The notes beneath the pieces were generated by a model. That model saw only the letters and a program-made list of their open reading frames with translations, was not told the DNA's origin and ran no database searches. Shown here piece by piece: positions 2,452 through 22,603 of a stretch of 32,008 bases of DNA; the first letter of the stretch is position 1, and each line of letters begins with the position of its first letter. Made by a program: the position numbers and the translations under genes. The stretch covers positions 1 to 32,008 of the forward strand of contig JAPLCU010000026.1 in NCBI GenBank assembly GCA_026392045.1, given 5' to 3'. The stretch comes from Armatimonadota bacterium. Its GTDB lineage: Bacteria > Armatimonadota > UBA5829.

Positions 2452-4029
<1,578 letters not shown>

Positions 4030-4060
4030 GGTTGATGGTCTGATAGGCATGATGATCTTT

Positions 4061-4312
4061 GATCGTCCGGCAAATCTGTTGCCGGATGCCGTTCTTGATC
4101 GTCCGGCAAATCTGTTGCCGGACGCCATTCTTGATCGTTCGGCAAATCTGTTGCCGGATGCCGTTCCTGATCGTCCGGCAAATCTGTTGCCGGACGCCGT
4201 TCCTGATCGTCCGGCAAATCTGTTGCCGGATGCCGTTCTTGATCGTTCGGCAAATCTGTTGCCGGACACCGTTCTTGATCGTCCGGCAAATCTGTTGCCG
4301 GACGCCGTTCCC
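4061..4312. repeat. Seven tandem 36-bp repeats, each containing a hairpin
   Basis: Units start at 4061, 4097, 4133, 4169, 4205, 4241 and 4277 with no spacer. Each runs GATCG, arm TCCGGCAA, loop ATCTG, arm TTGCCGGA, then a 10-12-base tail ending GTTCTT, GTTCCT, ATTCTT or GTTCCC. Every difference among the seven is a C-to-T or G-to-A type change. Some fall in the arms (TCCGG or TTCGG; GGACG, GGATG or GGACA), and pairing is largely kept by wobbles. The unit is the same hairpin found singly, in the opposite orientation, at 6893-6920. Confidence 0.95.
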
Positions 4313-4455
4313 GGATATCTAATCCGCAGACGAACGCGTGCATCCCGGACGATCACCAACAAGTTTCCCGAAAAACCGAATAGAATAACACAATAACGCG
4401 CGTGAGTCGATGCCCAAACGTCAACAAGTTGCACAGACCCCGCTCGCAATTCCTC

Positions 4456-4484
4456 TTGCGGCATGCCTTAATAAGATGTAAAAT
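4456..4484 (+). promoter_or_regulatory. Promoter of the DUF488-DUF488-DuOB operon
   Basis: TTGCGG (4456-4461) and TAAAAT (4479-4484) are separated by 17 bases. The predicted start near 4491 leaves a short leader of about 20 bases. Confidence 0.6.
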
Positions 4485-4512
4485 ATCTCAATAAGGCGGA
4501 TGGGATGAACAC

Positions 4513-4986
4513 ATGACACAAATCCTCACCATAGGACATAGCAATCTCGACATCCTTGCGTTTCTAGAAATCCTCCGGGCGCACGGCGTTCAGGCGCTGG
4601 TGGATATTCGCAGCGACCCATACAGCCGTTATGCTCCCCAATTCAACAAGAACGATTTTCAGCATAATGTGACCAATGCGGGTCTGGAATATCGTTATTC
4701 CGGTTCATCTATCGGTGGCAAGCCCAAGGACCCTGCGCTCCAAACTTCAGCCGGAATCACCGACTATGACAAACTCGCCGCCGCGCAATCATTTCAAGAC
4801 GAGCTCAAAGCTATTGTTGAACTGGCGAAAAGCAAGTGTGTTGTTCTTATGTGCAGCGAAGGCGACCCGATGAGCTGCCACCGCGAGCGGATAATCGCTC
4901 AAGTATTACGAAGTTGGGGCGTTGAAGTGCGCCATATCCAACCAGACGGAACCATCCAGGCAGTGGCTCAGCAAGGTCTCTTTTGA
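4513..4986 (+). CDS. DUF488 family protein (first of two)
   Basis: This 157-residue protein is of the DUF488 family, whose biochemical function is not established as far as I know. Diagnostic features are the N-terminal ILTIGHSN, the VDIRSDPYSRYAPQFN segment (D31, R33) and the C-terminal CSEGDPMSCHR with C114, C122, H123 and R124. A conserved Asp-Arg pair and Cys/His cluster suggest an enzyme active site, but this is inference. It is 21 bases upstream of a second DUF488 gene and in one operon with a DuOB-like gene. A promoter lies at 4456-4484. There is no signal peptide, so it is cytoplasmic. Confidence 0.9.
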   Translation: MTQILTIGHSNLDILAFLEILRAHGVQALVDIRSDPYSRYAPQFNKNDFQHNVTNAGLEYRYSGSSIGGKPKDPALQTSAGITDYDKLAAAQSFQDELKAIVELAKSKCVVLMCSEGDPMSCHRERIIAQVLRSWGVEVRHIQPDGTIQAVAQQGLF

Positions 4987-5007
4987 TTTCGAACAAGAGG
5001 TCGTAAA

Positions 5008-5457
5008 ATGGTCATTTATACAATCGGTTACACAAAGAAGAGCCTGGAAGATTTTATCGGTTTGCTTCGCGGCGCTGGTGTCGATTGCGTGATAGATATT
5101 CGCCTCAACAACACCTCCCAGCTCGCCGGTTTTTCTAAAAAGAACGACCTTGCGTTCCTTCTTAAAAAAGGCTTTGCCATCGATTACATACATATCCCCG
5201 ATCTCGCGCCCTCCGAAGAGATTTTGACCGAATACAAATCATCCAAAGACTGGGCCCTATATCAAGATCGCTATCTCGAGCTTGCCAAAGAACGCGGGAT
5301 GGTCGATATTCTGCGAGACGCCATCCAATCCGGCGGTTGGAAAGCGCCTTGCTTGCTATGCGCCGAACCTACATCCGACTGCTGCCACCGCCGCCTTCTC
5401 GCCGAGAAGTTCTGCGATAGCATTCAATGCTCGGAGGTGGTTCACCTTGGAATCTGA
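5008..5457 (+). CDS. DUF488 family protein (second of two)
   Basis: This 149-residue paralogue of the preceding gene shares YTIGYTKKS, VIDIR (D30, R32) and CAEPTSDCCHRR (C118, C126, H127, R128). The two copies are clearly diverged, including in the middle region (LAGFSKKNDLAFLLKK here; APQFNKNDF in the first), so they probably have distinct roles rather than being a recent duplication. An AGAGG ribosome-binding site precedes the ATG. The last codons overlap the TTG start of the downstream DuOB-like gene, indicating translational coupling. Confidence 0.9.
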   Translation: MVIYTIGYTKKSLEDFIGLLRGAGVDCVIDIRLNNTSQLAGFSKKNDLAFLLKKGFAIDYIHIPDLAPSEEILTEYKSSKDWALYQDRYLELAKERGMVDILRDAIQSGGWKAPCLLCAEPTSDCCHRRLLAEKFCDSIQCSEVVHLGI

Positions 5458-6124
5458 ACCGATTGTTGTGCTTGCGGTGACAAAGATGCTGAGTGGGGTG
5501 TGTACCGGTGGGATTAGCATGATTACGGAAAAATGGGTGCGGCCCGTCAAAGAATTCGGCACGGTGCTGATCGGGGACCTTACCTATCGCGACAGGAGCT
5601 TGATACGCCCGTTTGATATAGTCAAATTCGGGCTTATCCAACCGCGTCCGAAACCACCTCACATTGAAGATTGGACTTGCGATTTCGTTCACACAAGGCC
5701 GGAGCTTACCGGCAGGCTGGATCAGAGATTATGGTTCCTGGAACAGCATTCCAAGCCTGATGCGGCGGAGCAAATTCTCCAGGTGCAGAGATCGCTTGCG
5801 TTGATAGAGCCCTCATCAATCGAGGCGCAGTTTGTGCAAGACAGCTATTCTGGCAAATATGATGCAAGGCTGAAAATTCCCGAAATGGGAGAGCGGCCGC
5901 TGCCTGTTACGGATATCAAATGGCGAGCCCTCGGAAGGCAGCTCCTTGGCTCCAGCGAATGCCTCGTTCTGCAAACATCTGATATCCAGGATCGCCTGGG
6001 AGCAAATCGCATTTTTGTTGCCTTGGGGCTAAGCAGATTTCACGAAGGCAAACACTGGCCGCTGGTGATCGGAGTGCACACGTGGCCGGATTATGACGCC
6101 CAAATCGATATTCACAACTTATAA
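5447..6124 (+). CDS. Probable dual-OB (DuOB) domain protein
   Basis: This is a 225-residue protein if translation starts at the TTG at 5447, which has GGAGG (5433-5437) 9 bases upstream and overlaps the end of the DUF488 gene by 11 bases. A longer frame back to 5282 lies inside that gene and looks spurious. The N-terminus reads VVLAVTKMLSGVCTGG, then EKWVRPV, a G-rich turn and FDIVKFGLIQPRPKPPHIEDW. This resembles what I recall as the dual OB-containing domain (LAxSxKxGGxCVAG...G.WVRPV...). No enzymatic motif is obvious; the OB-like architecture suggests nucleic-acid or nucleotide binding. The family name is from memory and should be confirmed. The coupling to two DUF488 genes suggests a functional unit. 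Confidence 0.6.
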   Translation: MESEPIVVLAVTKMLSGVCTGGISMITEKWVRPVKEFGTVLIGDLTYRDRSLIRPFDIVKFGLIQPRPKPPHIEDWTCDFVHTRPELTGRLDQRLWFLEQHSKPDAAEQILQVQRSLALIEPSSIEAQFVQDSYSGKYDARLKIPEMGERPLPVTDIKWRALGRQLLGSSECLVLQTSDIQDRLGANRIFVALGLSRFHEGKHWPLVIGVHTWPDYDAQIDIHNL

Positions 6125-6188
6125 TGCCCCCGCCCACACGTTTCATTCCCTCCTTGAACGGTAATAACCAAGTGTCAGCAGGCAAGGT

Positions 6189-6218
6189 TTCGGGCCGATG
6201 GTTATCGGCCTGCCCGAA
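6189..6218 (+). promoter_or_regulatory. Stable hairpin in the leader of the outer-membrane protein gene
   Basis: TTCGGGC (6189-6195) can pair with GCCCGAA (6212-6218). Alternatively GGCCGAT (6193-6199) pairs with ATCGGCC (6204-6210) around GGTT. The structure ends 4 bases before the AAGGAG ribosome-binding site (6223-6228), so it could influence translation. There is no T-run. Confidence 0.45.
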
Positions 6219-6236
6219 TTGAAAGGAGCAAAGAAA

Positions 6237-6776
6237 ATGAAAGGGTGGCTATTCTATACATTGATCGCGGCGCTTGTGTTTACGCCAATATGCTTGTGGG
6301 CGGAAGATATTATTGTCCCCGAAGATACCGGCACAGGATATTCGTTCACAGCGGGAGTGATGTTTGCTATCAACAGTAATTTGCCAAACAATACCGCCCG
6401 TCCTTTGGTCGGTATTGCGTGGTTTGGGCCGGCTGGTGAAACATTTGGCGATAACAGCGCCATCGGGCTCTCGGCAGAATGGATTAACTACGAGAAGGCC
6501 GACGGAGATTCGGTAAGCCTCTTTCCGCTACTTCTCAATCTCAAAATCTATGGGGCGGCATCAGGCTGGCGGCTTTTCACCACGCTGGGTGCAGGAATAT
6601 TGGCAACTTCAGACGAAATTCCCGAGTTGGGACTCAATAATGGTGGCAACTTCGGCTGGACAGGCAAATTAGGAATAGACTTTACCAACGAATTCTTCGT
6701 GCAGGCCAATTTCATAGCCAGCAGCGACCCCAGCAGAGACGGATTCGCGGGCGTTCAACTGGGCTACAGGTTCTGA
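6237..6776 (+). CDS. Small outer-membrane beta-barrel-like protein
   Basis: This 179-residue exported protein has a signal peptide (MKGWLFYTLIAALVFTPICLWA, cleavage probably before ED). Alternating-hydrophobic strands follow, such as YSFTAGVMFAINSN, IGLSAEWINY, NLKIYGAASGWRLFTTLGAGIL, WTGKLGIDFT and FFVQANFIAS. The C-terminus is GVQLGYRF, ending in phenylalanine as outer-membrane barrels do for BAM recognition. The ATG at 6237 has AAGGAG 8 bases upstream; an upstream ATG at 6198 is inside the leader hairpin and unlikely. I do not recognise a specific family. Its function could be a porin-like or structural barrel. Confidence 0.7.
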   Translation: MKGWLFYTLIAALVFTPICLWAEDIIVPEDTGTGYSFTAGVMFAINSNLPNNTARPLVGIAWFGPAGETFGDNSAIGLSAEWINYEKADGDSVSLFPLLLNLKIYGAASGWRLFTTLGAGILATSDEIPELGLNNGGNFGWTGKLGIDFTNEFFVQANFIASSDPSRDGFAGVQLGYRF

Positions 6777-6788
6777 GGAGTTGTAATT

Positions 6789-6945
6789 GTAGATCGCCCC
6801 GGAAATCTTGTAGATCGCCCCGAAAATCTTGTAGATCGCCCCGGAAATCTGTTCCGGGGCGTGGTCTTGCGGATCGGATATCCGCCACACAGCGTCCGGC
6901 AACAGATTTGCCGGACGATCAGGGCAACAGATTTGCCGGACGATC
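6789..6945. repeat. Cluster of hairpin repeats, half-repeats and inverted copies
   Basis: Three 21-bp tandem units begin at 6789, 6810 and 6831, each GTAGATCGCCCC followed by a GGAAATCTT-like end. Only the third continues into a right arm, giving stem CGCCCCGGAA (6837-6846)/TTCCGGGGCG (6852-6861) around ATCTG. GCGGAT/ATCCGC with loop CGGAT follows at 6869-6885. Then CGTCCGGCAA (6893-6902)/TTGCCGGACG (6908-6917) around CAGAT is the reverse complement of the 4061 array unit. A last copy at 6923-6945 has lost part of its left arm. Confidence 0.85.
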
Positions 6946-7003
6946 GGTCTTTGAAACCTGTTTCCTACAACCTGTCCCCTACTTCTGCTATACTATTAAT
7001 ATC

Positions 7004-8728
7004 ATGACTTATGACGGCTTCACGCTTGCGGCGGTAATCGCCGAGTTGCAACACAGATTGGTGGGCGGCAAGGTCCAAAAAATCCGCCAGCATAATGACA
7101 CGGATATAACAATGGAAATCCGAGGCCCCGGTCACACCTATATGCTGTTCTTTTCGGTGGATGCCAAGTTCTCGCGTGTTTACCTCACCGCGTCGCTCGA
7201 TCCAGTTCCGCCGGAGCCGCCAAACTTCTGCATGCTCATGCGCAAACATTTGCAGGGGGGATATCTGACGGGCATTGAGCAGGTTGGCATGGATCGCGTC
7301 ATGAAGCTCAATTTCGAGTATCCCGACCACACCCGCTTAACACTCATTCTTGAGCTGATGGGCAAACACTCAAACTTAATTCTCACAGACTCAACGAACA
7401 AAATACTCGGCGCGGTGAAGCATGTCGGCTCATCTATCAGCCGCTACAGGCAGGTGCTTCCCGGTAGAGACTACGTCATCCCGCCTGGCGAGCCCAAGAT
7501 AGACCCCCGCACTTTGAGCTTGTCTGCTATCAGCCGCGTCTGGCCCTCCAGTTTCAGCGAGCGGCCTGATACTGATACCGTGCGCGGCTGGCTAATGAGC
7601 GCTTTCAGCGGCATCGGCCCATTCCTGGCAGATGAGATCATAGCCCGAGCCCAAGATGACGGCGCCGTTCCTCGCGAAAGCATGCAGGAAGAGCTGCTGC
7701 AACTCGGTGAGATGGTGCGCGAAGGCCAGTTTGTGCCGGTGCTTATCACCGACGAGCGCGGCAAAAGCCTCGTGGTCTATCCTATGCCTTCCGTGCAGTT
7801 CCCTGCCGACCGTCAGCACCCGCGCGCGTCCATAAACGAGGCGCTGGATATCCTCTTCCGCACGGTTGTCACCCGAGACCTGATCGAATCCGAGCGCACG
7901 CAGACCCTGACAGCCATCCGCCGCGCGCATACTGCCCGCAAGCAGGTAATAAAATCCATCGAGCGAACCATCGCTGAGTCCAAAAATGCCGAGCGATATC
8001 GCCAAACCGGCGAACTGCTCCTTGCAAATTTGCAAGCATTCGAGACCGGCGCAAAATCCATTACTCTGGTGAATTATTTCGACCCCGAACTGGCCGAGAC
8101 TACTATTGAACTGGATGAAAAGCTCACGCCCCAGAAAAACGCCGAGCGCTACTTCAAACGCTTCCAAAAAGCGCGCGATGCCGCCTCAATGGCTTCCCAG
8201 CGAAAGGCAAACGTCGCCCGTGAGCTCGATTTGCTGGAAAAAGCATCCAAAGACGCCGAAGGCGCCCGCACCGTAGATGCCCTTAAGGACCTTCGCAGAT
8301 CACTTACGGAGCAGGACCTGCTGCGCCAGGAGGTTGTCCACGGTGAAAAGCAAGAATCCGAATTCGGCGGAGAGCGCGTTCGACGCTACCTCACCCCCGA
8401 GGGTTGGGAAATACTCTACGGAGAAAGCGCCAAGGCCAACGACTACCTCACCCAGCGCGTAGCCAAACCCAACGATGTATGGCTGCACGCCCGCCAGACC
8501 ACGGGCGCGCATGTAGTAATCAGAACCGCAGGCCACTCCGGCGAGGTGCCGAGGCCGGTCTTAATGCAGGCATCGAAAATCGCAGCGCAAAACTCAGACG
8601 CCAAGCACTCGTCATTAGTCCCGATAGACCACACTTTCAAGAAATTTGTCCGCAAACCCCGCGGATCAGCGCCTGGACTCGTGACCTACCGCAACGAAAA
8701 AACGATAGACATCAACCCGAAGGCGTAG
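7004..8728 (+). CDS. rqcH: RqcH/NFACT family ribosome-rescue protein
   Basis: This 574-residue protein is of the NFACT family (bacterial RqcH, relative of eukaryotic Rqc2/NEMF). In Bacillus RqcH binds obstructed 50S subunits with peptidyl-tRNA and drives C-terminal alanine tailing that marks the stalled peptide for degradation. The N-terminal NFACT-N domain reads MTYDGFTLAAVIAEL...GGKVQKIRQ and carries D97-R98 in VGMDRVM, at the position of the Asp-Arg pair essential in Bacillus RqcH. A coiled-coil region rich in E, K and R lies around 310-460. The C-terminal NFACT-R (DUF814) domain from about 491 reads DVWLHARQTTGAHVVI, then AAQNSDAKHSSLVPID and PGLVTYRNEKTI. The true start is the ATG at 7004; the frame is open further upstream only through the hairpin repeats. 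Confidence 0.92.
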   Translation: MTYDGFTLAAVIAELQHRLVGGKVQKIRQHNDTDITMEIRGPGHTYMLFFSVDAKFSRVYLTASLDPVPPEPPNFCMLMRKHLQGGYLTGIEQVGMDRVMKLNFEYPDHTRLTLILELMGKHSNLILTDSTNKILGAVKHVGSSISRYRQVLPGRDYVIPPGEPKIDPRTLSLSAISRVWPSSFSERPDTDTVRGWLMSAFSGIGPFLADEIIARAQDDGAVPRESMQEELLQLGEMVREGQFVPVLITDERGKSLVVYPMPSVQFPADRQHPRASINEALDILFRTVVTRDLIESERTQTLTAIRRAHTARKQVIKSIERTIAESKNAERYRQTGELLLANLQAFETGAKSITLVNYFDPELAETTIELDEKLTPQKNAERYFKRFQKARDAASMASQRKANVARELDLLEKASKDAEGARTVDALKDLRRSLTEQDLLRQEVVHGEKQESEFGGERVRRYLTPEGWEILYGESAKANDYLTQRVAKPNDVWLHARQTTGAHVVIRTAGHSGEVPRPVLMQASKIAAQNSDAKHSSLVPIDHTFKKFVRKPRGSAPGLVTYRNEKTIDINPKA

Positions 8729-12782: not shown

Positions 12783-13307
12783 ATGCGCATACTACTAACA
12801 GCCATCGCGGTTCTCAGCGCAACCGCATGTGTCTCAAAAATGGCCTCGTGCCAGACAGGTATTCAGCCATACAGCGCGATGTTTATTGGTAATCAGGTAA
12901 ATGGCACGAACCTATGGAACTACACGCTTATAAATACAAGCGAGAGCAATGTATATACCGTGATCCTCGTGCAGTTAGAGGTGGACGAGCTGACACAAAT
13001 AATAGAAGCTCCGAATGTGGCAGGATGGTATGTAGACCCAACCGTTCCAAATTTCGTGACTTGGGCAAGCAAGGACGATGGACTCATGGCAGGTCAGTCT
13101 GTGACTGATTTTGCCATAGAGTTCTCTAAGAAACCCGAGTTTCAGAACTGGACTGCAATGTTCAACAATATCGACGATCCTGGCGAATGCCCATCAGATA
13201 GCGGGGTTGTGCTCAATGCGAGCGCTGTCCCCGAACCTACCGGATTGGCTTCGTTTGCGGTCGGCCTGATATCGTTTTTTGGAATTCTGAAAAGAAGACG
13301 CGCCTGA
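12783..13307 (+). CDS. PEP-CTERM sorting-domain protein
   Basis: This 174-residue exported protein has an N-terminal signal peptide (MRILLTAIAVLSATACVSKMASC) and a C-terminal sorting signal: VPEP at 149-152, hydrophobic helix GLASFAVGLISFFGIL, then KRRR. PEP-CTERM proteins are processed by an exosortase in Gram-negative bacteria and are often linked to exopolysaccharide and flocs. The 120-residue middle (LWNYTLINTSESNVYTVILVQLE...) is beta-rich and of unknown function. AAGGAGG (12766-12772) is 10 bases upstream of the ATG. A sigma-54 promoter precedes it, consistent with the RpoN-dependent control known for several PEP-CTERM genes. No exosortase gene is in this window. Confidence 0.88.
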   Translation: MRILLTAIAVLSATACVSKMASCQTGIQPYSAMFIGNQVNGTNLWNYTLINTSESNVYTVILVQLEVDELTQIIEAPNVAGWYVDPTVPNFVTWASKDDGLMAGQSVTDFAIEFSKKPEFQNWTAMFNNIDDPGECPSDSGVVLNASAVPEPTGLASFAVGLISFFGILKRRRA

Positions 13308-21398: not shown

Positions 21399-21553
21399 GA
21401 TGGTCGGGGATTTGCAAATCCAGGACGATCAAGTTACGGGTGGATCATCCCGATTAAATCGGGACGCCCGAACAAGTGTCTTTGGCGCGGCGCGACTCTC
21501 CCCAACCGCCAACTCCCCAACTGCCAACCGCCAACATCTCCCTTCCCCAATTT
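21399..21553 (+). repeat. Left direct repeat flanking the restriction-modification cassette
   Basis: Two blocks, 21399-21432 (34 bp, with the palindrome GGATTTGCAAATCC) and 21490-21553 (64 bp, with a heptamer-like CCAACNN array), are each identical to the single contiguous block at 23367-23464. In this left copy they are separated by 57 extra bases that contain the palindrome TCCCGATTAAATCGGGA (21448-21464). Confidence 0.95.
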
Positions 21554-21558
21554 AGTTG

Positions 21559-21567
21559 TGTTATAAT
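21559..21567 (+). promoter_or_regulatory. Extended -10 promoter of the methyltransferase gene
   Basis: TGTTATAAT (21559-21567) is a TGnTATAAT extended -10 that begins 6 bases after the end of the left direct repeat. The predicted start near 21574 almost coincides with the ATG at 21575, so the mRNA may be leaderless. Confidence 0.6.
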
Positions 21568-21574
21568 GGTAACT

Positions 21575-22603
21575 ATGGAAAGAGAGGCAGTCGAACATAA
21601 TATGATTTCAGACTTGGCAAACTGCACAACACAGCGAGCGCCGAGAAACAGGACGATAAGCCTGGGTGATAATCAGGTTTGTCGTCTGACCGACCGTTTG
21701 ATAAAGGACATACCGCCTAGTCGGTTGGTAATACCACCCATTGGTACCGTAATGGGCAACTGCATTGAATGGGCTAAGATGCTGCCGTTGGCATTTGTTG
21801 ACCTGATTATCCTTGATCCACCTTATAACCTTGATAAGACATTCAACGGACAGAGATTCGCAAAAATGAGTGTTGAGGATTATGCTATTTGGTTTGATAA
21901 CGTGGTTCAGGTTCTTAAGCCAATGCTCAAGGCAGATGCATCGATATATGTATGTTGTGATTGGATAACATCGCAGTCTGTATATTCAGTATTAGTGCGG
22001 CACTTTCGTGTGCAAAATCGAATCACGTGGGAGCGTGAAAAGGGGAGAGGCGCAAAACACAATTGGAAGAATGCCTGTGAAGATATCTGGTTCTGCACAA
22101 TGTCTAATGACTATACTTACAACGTGGATGCCGTTAAGATGCGCCGTAAGGTGATTGCGCCATATAAAGATGAAAGTGGAAAGCCAAAGGACTGGATGCG
22201 AACGCAAGAAGGTAACTTTCGTGATACTCACCCTTCAAACTTTTGGACGGACATAACAATCCCTTTCTGGTCTATGCCCGAAAACACCGATCATCCCACA
22301 CAGAAGAGTGAGAAGTTAATTGCTAAGCTCATTCTCGCCAGTTCTAATAAAGGAGACTTCGTGCTTGATCCATTCCTCGGAAGCGGAACTACCTCTGTAG
22401 TTGCAAAGAAATTGGAGCGCCGTTATCTGGGTATCGAAGTGGAAGAGCAGTATTGCCTTTGGGCCGAGTATAGGCTTGAGCAAGCCGAGAGAGATCGCTG
22501 CATACAAGGCTATGCAGACGGCGTGTTTTGGGAGCGAAATAGCGCTCCAAATTACAGGAATCTGCCAAATGCTGAACAGCCATCACTTTTGGAATTGTTG
22601 TGA
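21575..22603 (+). CDS. DNA (N6-adenine or N4-cytosine) methyltransferase, beta-class
   Basis: This 342-residue type II methyltransferase protects host DNA by methylating the site cut by its partner nuclease. The catalytic DPPY (81-84, LDPPYN) precedes the AdoMet-binding motif DPFLGSGTTSVVAKKL (265-280) in the chain, the motif order of the beta class. DPPY favours N6-adenine over cytosine N4, which usually has SPPY. HPTQKSEKL lies between them. Upstream in-frame ATGs at 21566 and the downstream 21602 are alternatives; no good ribosome-binding site precedes any of them. The restriction endonuclease gene follows by 66 bases. By eye the gene is more A+T-rich than its neighbours, in line with transfer. 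Confidence 0.9.
   Translation: MEREAVEHNMISDLANCTTQRAPRNRTISLGDNQVCRLTDRLIKDIPPSRLVIPPIGTVMGNCIEWAKMLPLAFVDLIILDPPYNLDKTFNGQRFAKMSVEDYAIWFDNVVQVLKPMLKADASIYVCCDWITSQSVYSVLVRHFRVQNRITWEREKGRGAKHNWKNACEDIWFCTMSNDYTYNVDAVKMRRKVIAPYKDESGKPKDWMRTQEGNFRDTHPSNFWTDITIPFWSMPENTDHPTQKSEKLIAKLILASSNKGDFVLDPFLGSGTTSVVAKKLERRYLGIEVEEQYCLWAEYRLEQAERDRCIQGYADGVFWERNSAPNYRNLPNAEQPSLLELL

Follow-up and report, generated by a model that had tools for sequence, protein, structure and literature searches.

Two DUF488 genes and a DuOB gene in an Armatimonadota genome: a putative diverged member of the candidate phage-defence system PDC-M45

In the window, by which we mean the whole stretch of 32,008 nucleotides analysed here, three genes follow one another head to tail on the forward strand. 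They encode a DUF488 protein of type B (P0002, 4513..4986, 157 amino acid residues, ATG start), a DUF488 protein of type C (P0003, 5008..5457, 149 residues, ATG start) and DuOB, a dual OB-fold protein (5447..6124, 225 residues, TTG start). Hereafter DuOB and the two DUF488 proteins are called A, B and C after the PADLOC models PDC-M45A/B/C, and the gene order in the window is B-C-A. The coordinates of the open reading frames agree with the spacing of 21 bases between the genes for types B and C and the overlap of 11 bases between those for type C and DuOB that had been given in the original prediction. The predicted families are also found: the Pfam family DUF488 (PF04343) is matched with 78.1 bits (1.1e-21) by type B and with 76.2 bits (4.5e-21) by type C, the curated cut-off being 22.2, and the third protein matches DuOB (PF22557) with 68.1 bits (1.5e-18), the cut-off being 27. 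Type C matches in addition the model DUF488-N3a (2.1e-8). A likely source of the names DUF488-N3 and DuOB is the work of Burroughs and Aravind in 2020 on the rhodanese-phosphatase superfamily. Both motifs expected of the DUF488 copies, DIR and C(S/A)E...CHR, can be read in the window proteins, as VDIRSDPYS and CSEGDPMSCHR in type B and as IDIRLNNTSQ and CAEPTSDCCHR in type C, and no further DUF488 gene was found in the genome. The single promoter proposed for the three genes is not borne out by a scan of positions 4000-6950 for the sigma-70-like consensus, which gave no site on the forward strand upstream of 4513 and, in total, four sites against a mean of 2.8 in shuffled sequences, that is, no excess.

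The trio is flanked by palindromic repeats. Upstream, a 36-base unit containing the palindromic 18-mer CGGCAAATCTGTTGCCGG is present in seven copies on the forward strand (4059..4310), and downstream, copies of the palindromic unit lie in the opposite orientation (6896..6945, reverse strand); the window holds 8 of the genome's 14 exact copies of the 18-mer. These repeats could be REP-like or the trace of an insertion. The same downstream intergenic stretch contains three copies of a 21-base repeat (TTGTAGATCGCCCCGGAAATC) at 6787-6850. It is followed by an NFACT/RqcH-like gene (7001-8728), which has a homologue in all 15 genomes of the family and probably starts near 7001, not at the TTG at 6908 inside the palindromic repeat. 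On the other side lies a gene for alpha-L-arabinofuranosidase (2482-4029), and since this gene occurs in only 3 of the 15 family genomes, the trio adjoins an accessory gene. Farther away, the product of 12783-13307 has a possible PEP-CTERM sorting signal (TIGR02595, 8.6e-4, 20 bits with a cut-off of 16).

When the window proteins were compared with PADLOC-DB 2.0.0, all three parts of the candidate phage-defence system PDC-M45 were matched by the adjacent genes (A, 6.3e-11; B, 4.6e-45; C, 3.1e-44). DuOB is a diverged form, with 6e-11 against the M45A model compared with 2e-88 in Agrobacterium. Judged by these profile matches, the set in the window is a diverged member of PDC-M45. The set had been proposed to be undescribed, but PADLOC-DB 2.0.0 already contains the trio as PDC-M45A/B/C. 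A search of the literature for DUF488, DuOB and PDC-M45 gave no function for the trio. According to the accessible part of PMC12988326, such candidate systems derive from guilt-by-embedding and most of them still await testing.

The three genes recur together far beyond the window, as the original prediction had anticipated. In the phylum of the window, DuOB is present in 33 of 291 genomes and DUF488 in 138. By profiles, A is accompanied by both B and C in 26 of the 33 loci with DuOB, and in three others (L052, L053 and L054) it lies with two DUF488 genes whose type is less clear, so that two DUF488 genes share the locus in 29 of the 33; the remaining loci are L040, L065, L067 and L039, the last of which is situated at the start of a contig. 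Moreover, a scan of named genomes with the C-type profile confirmed at least 552 relatives, the best 80 of which were kept as a set of loci whose make-up depends on the search query. Within these best 80 of at least 552, the trio is complete in 68 loci, and in two more (L101 and L142) A and B are fused into one protein of 421-422 residues followed by C, so that all three parts are present in 70 of the 80. Five of the ten incomplete loci are cut by a nearby contig end (L079, L087, L092, L124 and L128), and the other five (L078, L108, L115, L127 and L129) lack partners although the contig leaves space for them on one side or both. Wider profiles again gave 68 of the best 80, with L101 and L142 gained and L103 and L119 lost. 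The arrangement A-B-C is found in 48 of the same best 80 loci, and that of the window, B-C-A, in 18. By record title, their hosts include Acidobacteria, Planctomycetes, Proteobacteria, Cyanobacteria, Ktedonobacterales, Actinobacteria, Verrucomicrobia and the archaeal Methanolliviera, some of the higher groups being those that we presume from the organism names.

Furthermore, the trees built for the three proteins from 94 complete loci agree with one another (Mantel rho 0.67, 0.61 and 0.75; the largest value in 500 permutations was 0.23). The nearest relatives of the window in every tree include, beside members of its own order, loci from Ktedonobacterales and Acidobacteria (L071, L072 and L075), and the trio therefore appears to move between phyla as a set. 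The recurrence of the same three families elsewhere places their adjacency far beyond chance, and the three genes are a real unit, which co-occurs and co-evolves. A housekeeping pair with an unrelated neighbour is ruled out by the co-occurrence and the agreement of the trees. A search through 618 flank genes for a constant fourth member gave no family that occurs in more than 7 of 68 loci.

The residues conserved in the two DUF488 types are closely alike. In an alignment of 68 sequences of type B, D31, R33, Y60, C114, E116, C122, H123, R124 and H141 are invariant, and in one of 76 sequences of type C, D30, R32, Y60, C118, E120, C126, H127, R128 and H146; both types thus have the same constellation of D.R, Y, C.E, C-H-R and a late H. 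Because this pattern is invariant in both, it speaks for B and C being two active enzymes, and the pair of putative enzymes beside a dual-OB protein that had been predicted is in keeping with the families found. One DUF488 protein as a dead paralogue was considered and rejected, since both keep the motif and both window proteins stay below the cut-off set for the 'inactive' model N3i. In the predicted structure of type C (pLDDT 92.6), C118 closes the strand 114-118 and R128 is among the first residues of the helix that follows (127-138). The catalytic loop of tyrosine phosphatases occupies this same place, between a strand and the helix after it. The best structural matches of the type C model are dual-specificity and tyrosine phosphatases, with Z scores of 9.1 to 8.0, among them laforin (9.1) and SsoPTP (8.7), and tetrapyrrole methylases score nearly equally (the methyltransferase CbiL, 8.6). 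The predicted fold of C is thus like that of these phosphatases at middling Z scores, but their signature CX5R is missing in B and C, both window proteins having C-X9-R instead (C114-R124 in P0002 and C118-R128 in P0003). Foldseek gave nothing for the type C model at E <= 0.001, and a sequence search of the PDB gave only two ATP synthase subunits for type C (E about 0.4) and no matches for type B or DuOB.

The structure predicted for DuOB (pLDDT 95.5) has top matches that are nearly all OB folds, including RPA, telomere-end proteins and PriB, with Z scores of at most 7.2. Some of the matches span both halves of the protein, as with RPA70 (1jmc, residues 1-213, Z 5.9). DuOB is therefore predicted to have the two-OB arrangement of RPA and other tandem-OB proteins that bind single-stranded DNA, although no sequence similarity to them was found in the PDB and Foldseek returned nothing for the model at E <= 0.001. 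In several relatives DuOB is joined to a helicase. The fusion in L125 has 966 residues and consists of RecQ with zinc, RQC and HRDC domains followed by DuOB; that in L073 has the same three domains and is cut by the contig end, as is that in L052, where DuOB comes first. A RecQ-family helicase also directly adjoins the set in L036, L037, L038, L041, L071, L074 and L079 and lies about 1 kb from it in L039. In total, RecQ is adjacent, near or fused in 11 of 128 DUF488/DuOB loci (the window and L033-L159) and in none of 20 control regions; in the subclade of the window (the window, L033-L038, L071, L072, L074 and L075) it adjoins 5 of 11. The window itself contains no RecQ, the nearest homologue in the genome being on another contig (C102, 54% identity). 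In the order of the window, a RecQ homologue is present in all 7 genomes with DuOB against 3 of 12 without it, an association that kinship may explain. Another extension of DuOB was seen in a single genus (L009-L011 and L013), where the reading frame continues without a stop into further sequence (534-586 residues), which in L011 we take, by reading, to be DapB-like; a functional DuOB-DapB fusion was not accepted, since it is confined to that genus (g44) and was taken as incidental.

The flanks of many trio loci are rich in defence genes. They were scanned with PADLOC at 1e-15, and the tallies are of families, not proteins. Near the named trios (best 80 of at least 552 loci), 122 of 194 genes gave 88 PADLOC families, including BREX PglX, BrxD, Hma, Argonaute and HerA, and near the phylum trio loci, 116 of 136 genes gave 69, including DISARM, Hma and a BREX helicase; in the control set A3 (20 regions in genomes of the phylum set), 119 of 226 genes gave 7, this control matching the phylum set only and not the named-genome set. 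Since several families can match one protein, and the DpdF and PsyrT models match RecQ, these figures overstate the number of systems. Particular cases are CBASS genes and an integrase beside the set on an Agrobacterium plasmid, type III CRISPR genes on an Allochromatium plasmid and NotI restriction-modification on a Klebsiella plasmid. The enrichment in defence genes, for which a survey had been proposed, thus holds for both sets of loci but not for the window, whose near flanks contain metabolic genes and no defence gene. Ten further window proteins compared with PADLOC gave only a weak match to PDC-M70B (5e-10) and, at a distance of 15 kb, a solitary N6/N4 DNA methylase (21476-22603).

B is not the only partner of the other two genes. 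On small plasmids of Acinetobacter, Leclercia and Klebsiella, DuOB and DUF488-C are followed by a gene for a DUF4326 protein, which takes the place of DUF488-B; an mSLOG domain was found in the one such plasmid protein that was scanned. The 38 loci found on viral contigs with the C profile comprise 10 of A-B-C, 24 of A-C-DUF4326, 2 of C-DUF4326, 1 of C and 1 of B-C, and in none of the 168 loci tallied do B and DUF4326 occur together. The window agrees with this in having type B and no DUF4326. Partial matches to the DuOB-DUF488-DUF4326 cassette were obtained in 14 of 5426 genomes of E. coli, none of them over 80% of the query, and three loci that were examined carry all three genes. One of these cassettes lies next to an integrase and mcrA at icd, presumably, by reading, in an e14-like element, and the other two lie with integrases at ffs. 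The RecQ fusions and the DUF4326 variant fall outside the PDC-M45 models as far as tested, and the DUF4326 protein of L155 had no match in PADLOC at 1e-5. When profiles are compared, the end of DUF4326 (C.CKP..CHGD..A.YLN) is in register with CSE.P..CHRRLVAEYL, but the alignment of its Cys-His motifs with those of C is weak (hhalign probability 10.5%) and homology is not established; for B the probability is 0.2%. In its available text, PMC9503650 places DUF4326 in the rhodanese-phosphatase superfamily and predicts it to take phosphate off ADP-ribose or off compounds arising from the breakdown of ADP-ribose. Searches for DuOB gave no match among plasmids (tblastn with the window protein) or among phage records (two different queries). 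A lone DUF488-like gene was observed beside an integrase and a repressor in Gordonia phages (L159, 3974-4426).

Single members of the trio also occur outside it. C-type DUF488 sequences match 136 plasmid records. In two formaldehyde-response cassettes on plasmids, which were examined, a C-type DUF488 gene (PDC-M45C, 9e-68) stands beside uvrB or uvrA together with frmR and formaldehyde dehydrogenase genes, fghA being part of this cassette type, whereas DuOB and DUF488-B are absent; the uvrA-DUF488-frmR block is at least 80% present in 82 plasmid records. B is alone in two sister genomes of the window's family (G241 and G242, loci L060 and L061), where we take it, by reading, to follow greA and an isochorismatase-like gene. 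A sister genome (locus L033) has B at the same place, followed by a HicBA-like toxin-antitoxin pair (8238-8653) and then C and A. Another insertion, of a gene for a 661-residue protein without Pfam match, lies between B and C in L036 (7080-9065). Lone C and lone B are both unexpected for a dedicated anti-phage trio. Of all the observations, the lone C in the formaldehyde cassettes hints most strongly at an action of C on damaged or modified nucleic acid, and it also weighs most heavily against a role in phage defence alone.

On balance we hold it probable that PDC-M45 is a horizontally mobile module for single-strand-directed nucleic-acid processing used in defence. DuOB, with its predicted RPA-like fold, would bind nucleic acid made single-stranded by a RecQ-type helicase or in the course of phage replication, and would bring to it two cysteine enzymes of phosphatase/rhodanese-like fold. 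C would be the constant catalytic core, and B, or the mSLOG-DUF4326 protein instead, would be interchangeable and carry out a related or supporting step. The enzymes may alter or strip chemical groups on the nucleic acid or on freed nucleotides and so block mobile elements. The same genes could alternatively form a module for repair of DNA damage, chiefly of aldehyde-type or bulky adducts, which travels as cargo of variable islands and whose main role is not against phages; DuOB and RecQ would make the lesion accessible, and its reversal would fall to the DUF488 enzymes. This would fit the plasmid C-type genes beside uvrA or uvrB, frmR and formaldehyde dehydrogenase genes with their 82 records, the RecQ-DuOB fusions with zinc, RQC and HRDC domains (L125 and L073) and the position of the window copy among metabolic genes, but we consider it somewhat unlikely in view of the enrichment of defence genes in the flanks of both sets over the control, the carriage of the trio or its variant by prophage-like and integrative elements, and the lack of DuOB and B in the two formaldehyde cassettes. 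A more far-reaching scheme, which we regard as unlikely, would be a constant core of DuOB and C to which optional RecQ and a third enzyme open to exchange (DUF488-B or mSLOG-DUF4326) are added, the whole being a machine directed at single strands that either reverses or installs a DNA adduct derived from a nucleotide or an aldehyde, one chemistry serving phage defence in the trio and adduct repair where C stands alone with UvrA or UvrB.

The substrate might also be soluble. If the enzymes acted on a signal or toxic product derived from NAD+ or ADP-ribose, with DuOB as an adaptor, the replacement of DUF488-B by mSLOG-DUF4326 would be readily understood given the dephosphorylation of ADP-ribose or its breakdown products predicted for DUF4326 in the available text of PMC9503650. 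DuOB, however, resembles folds that bind single-stranded DNA, its fusions join it to a helicase rather than to a signal synthase, and none of the families among the flank genes recurs beside the trio in more than 7 of 68 loci, all of which makes a soluble substrate quite improbable. It is very improbable that the trio is a toxin-antitoxin-like set made up of one toxic DUF488 protein held in check by its partners. The small size and overlap of the genes, their presence on mobile elements and the HicBA-like pair inserted into the trio of a relative would suit such a set, but both DUF488 types are equally conserved, and a bound toxin would not be expected to persist by itself, as B does in G241 and G242 and C on many plasmids.

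The preferred reading, of a mobile module that processes single-stranded nucleic acid in defence, bears on a widespread system, as at least 552 C-type relatives were found in one scan of named genomes. New here are the DuOB fusions, the exchange of B for mSLOG-DUF4326 and the link of type C to formaldehyde and Uvr genes, none of which is reported in the accessible parts of the literature searched (including PMC12988326, PMC11514479, PMC12704722, PMC9674854, PMC9503650, PMC12255303 and PMC7824862). The fusions, the exchange and the lone C in formaldehyde cassettes are testable clues to the role of the DUF488 enzymes, and the E. coli DuOB-DUF488-DUF4326 cassette is a ready test object.
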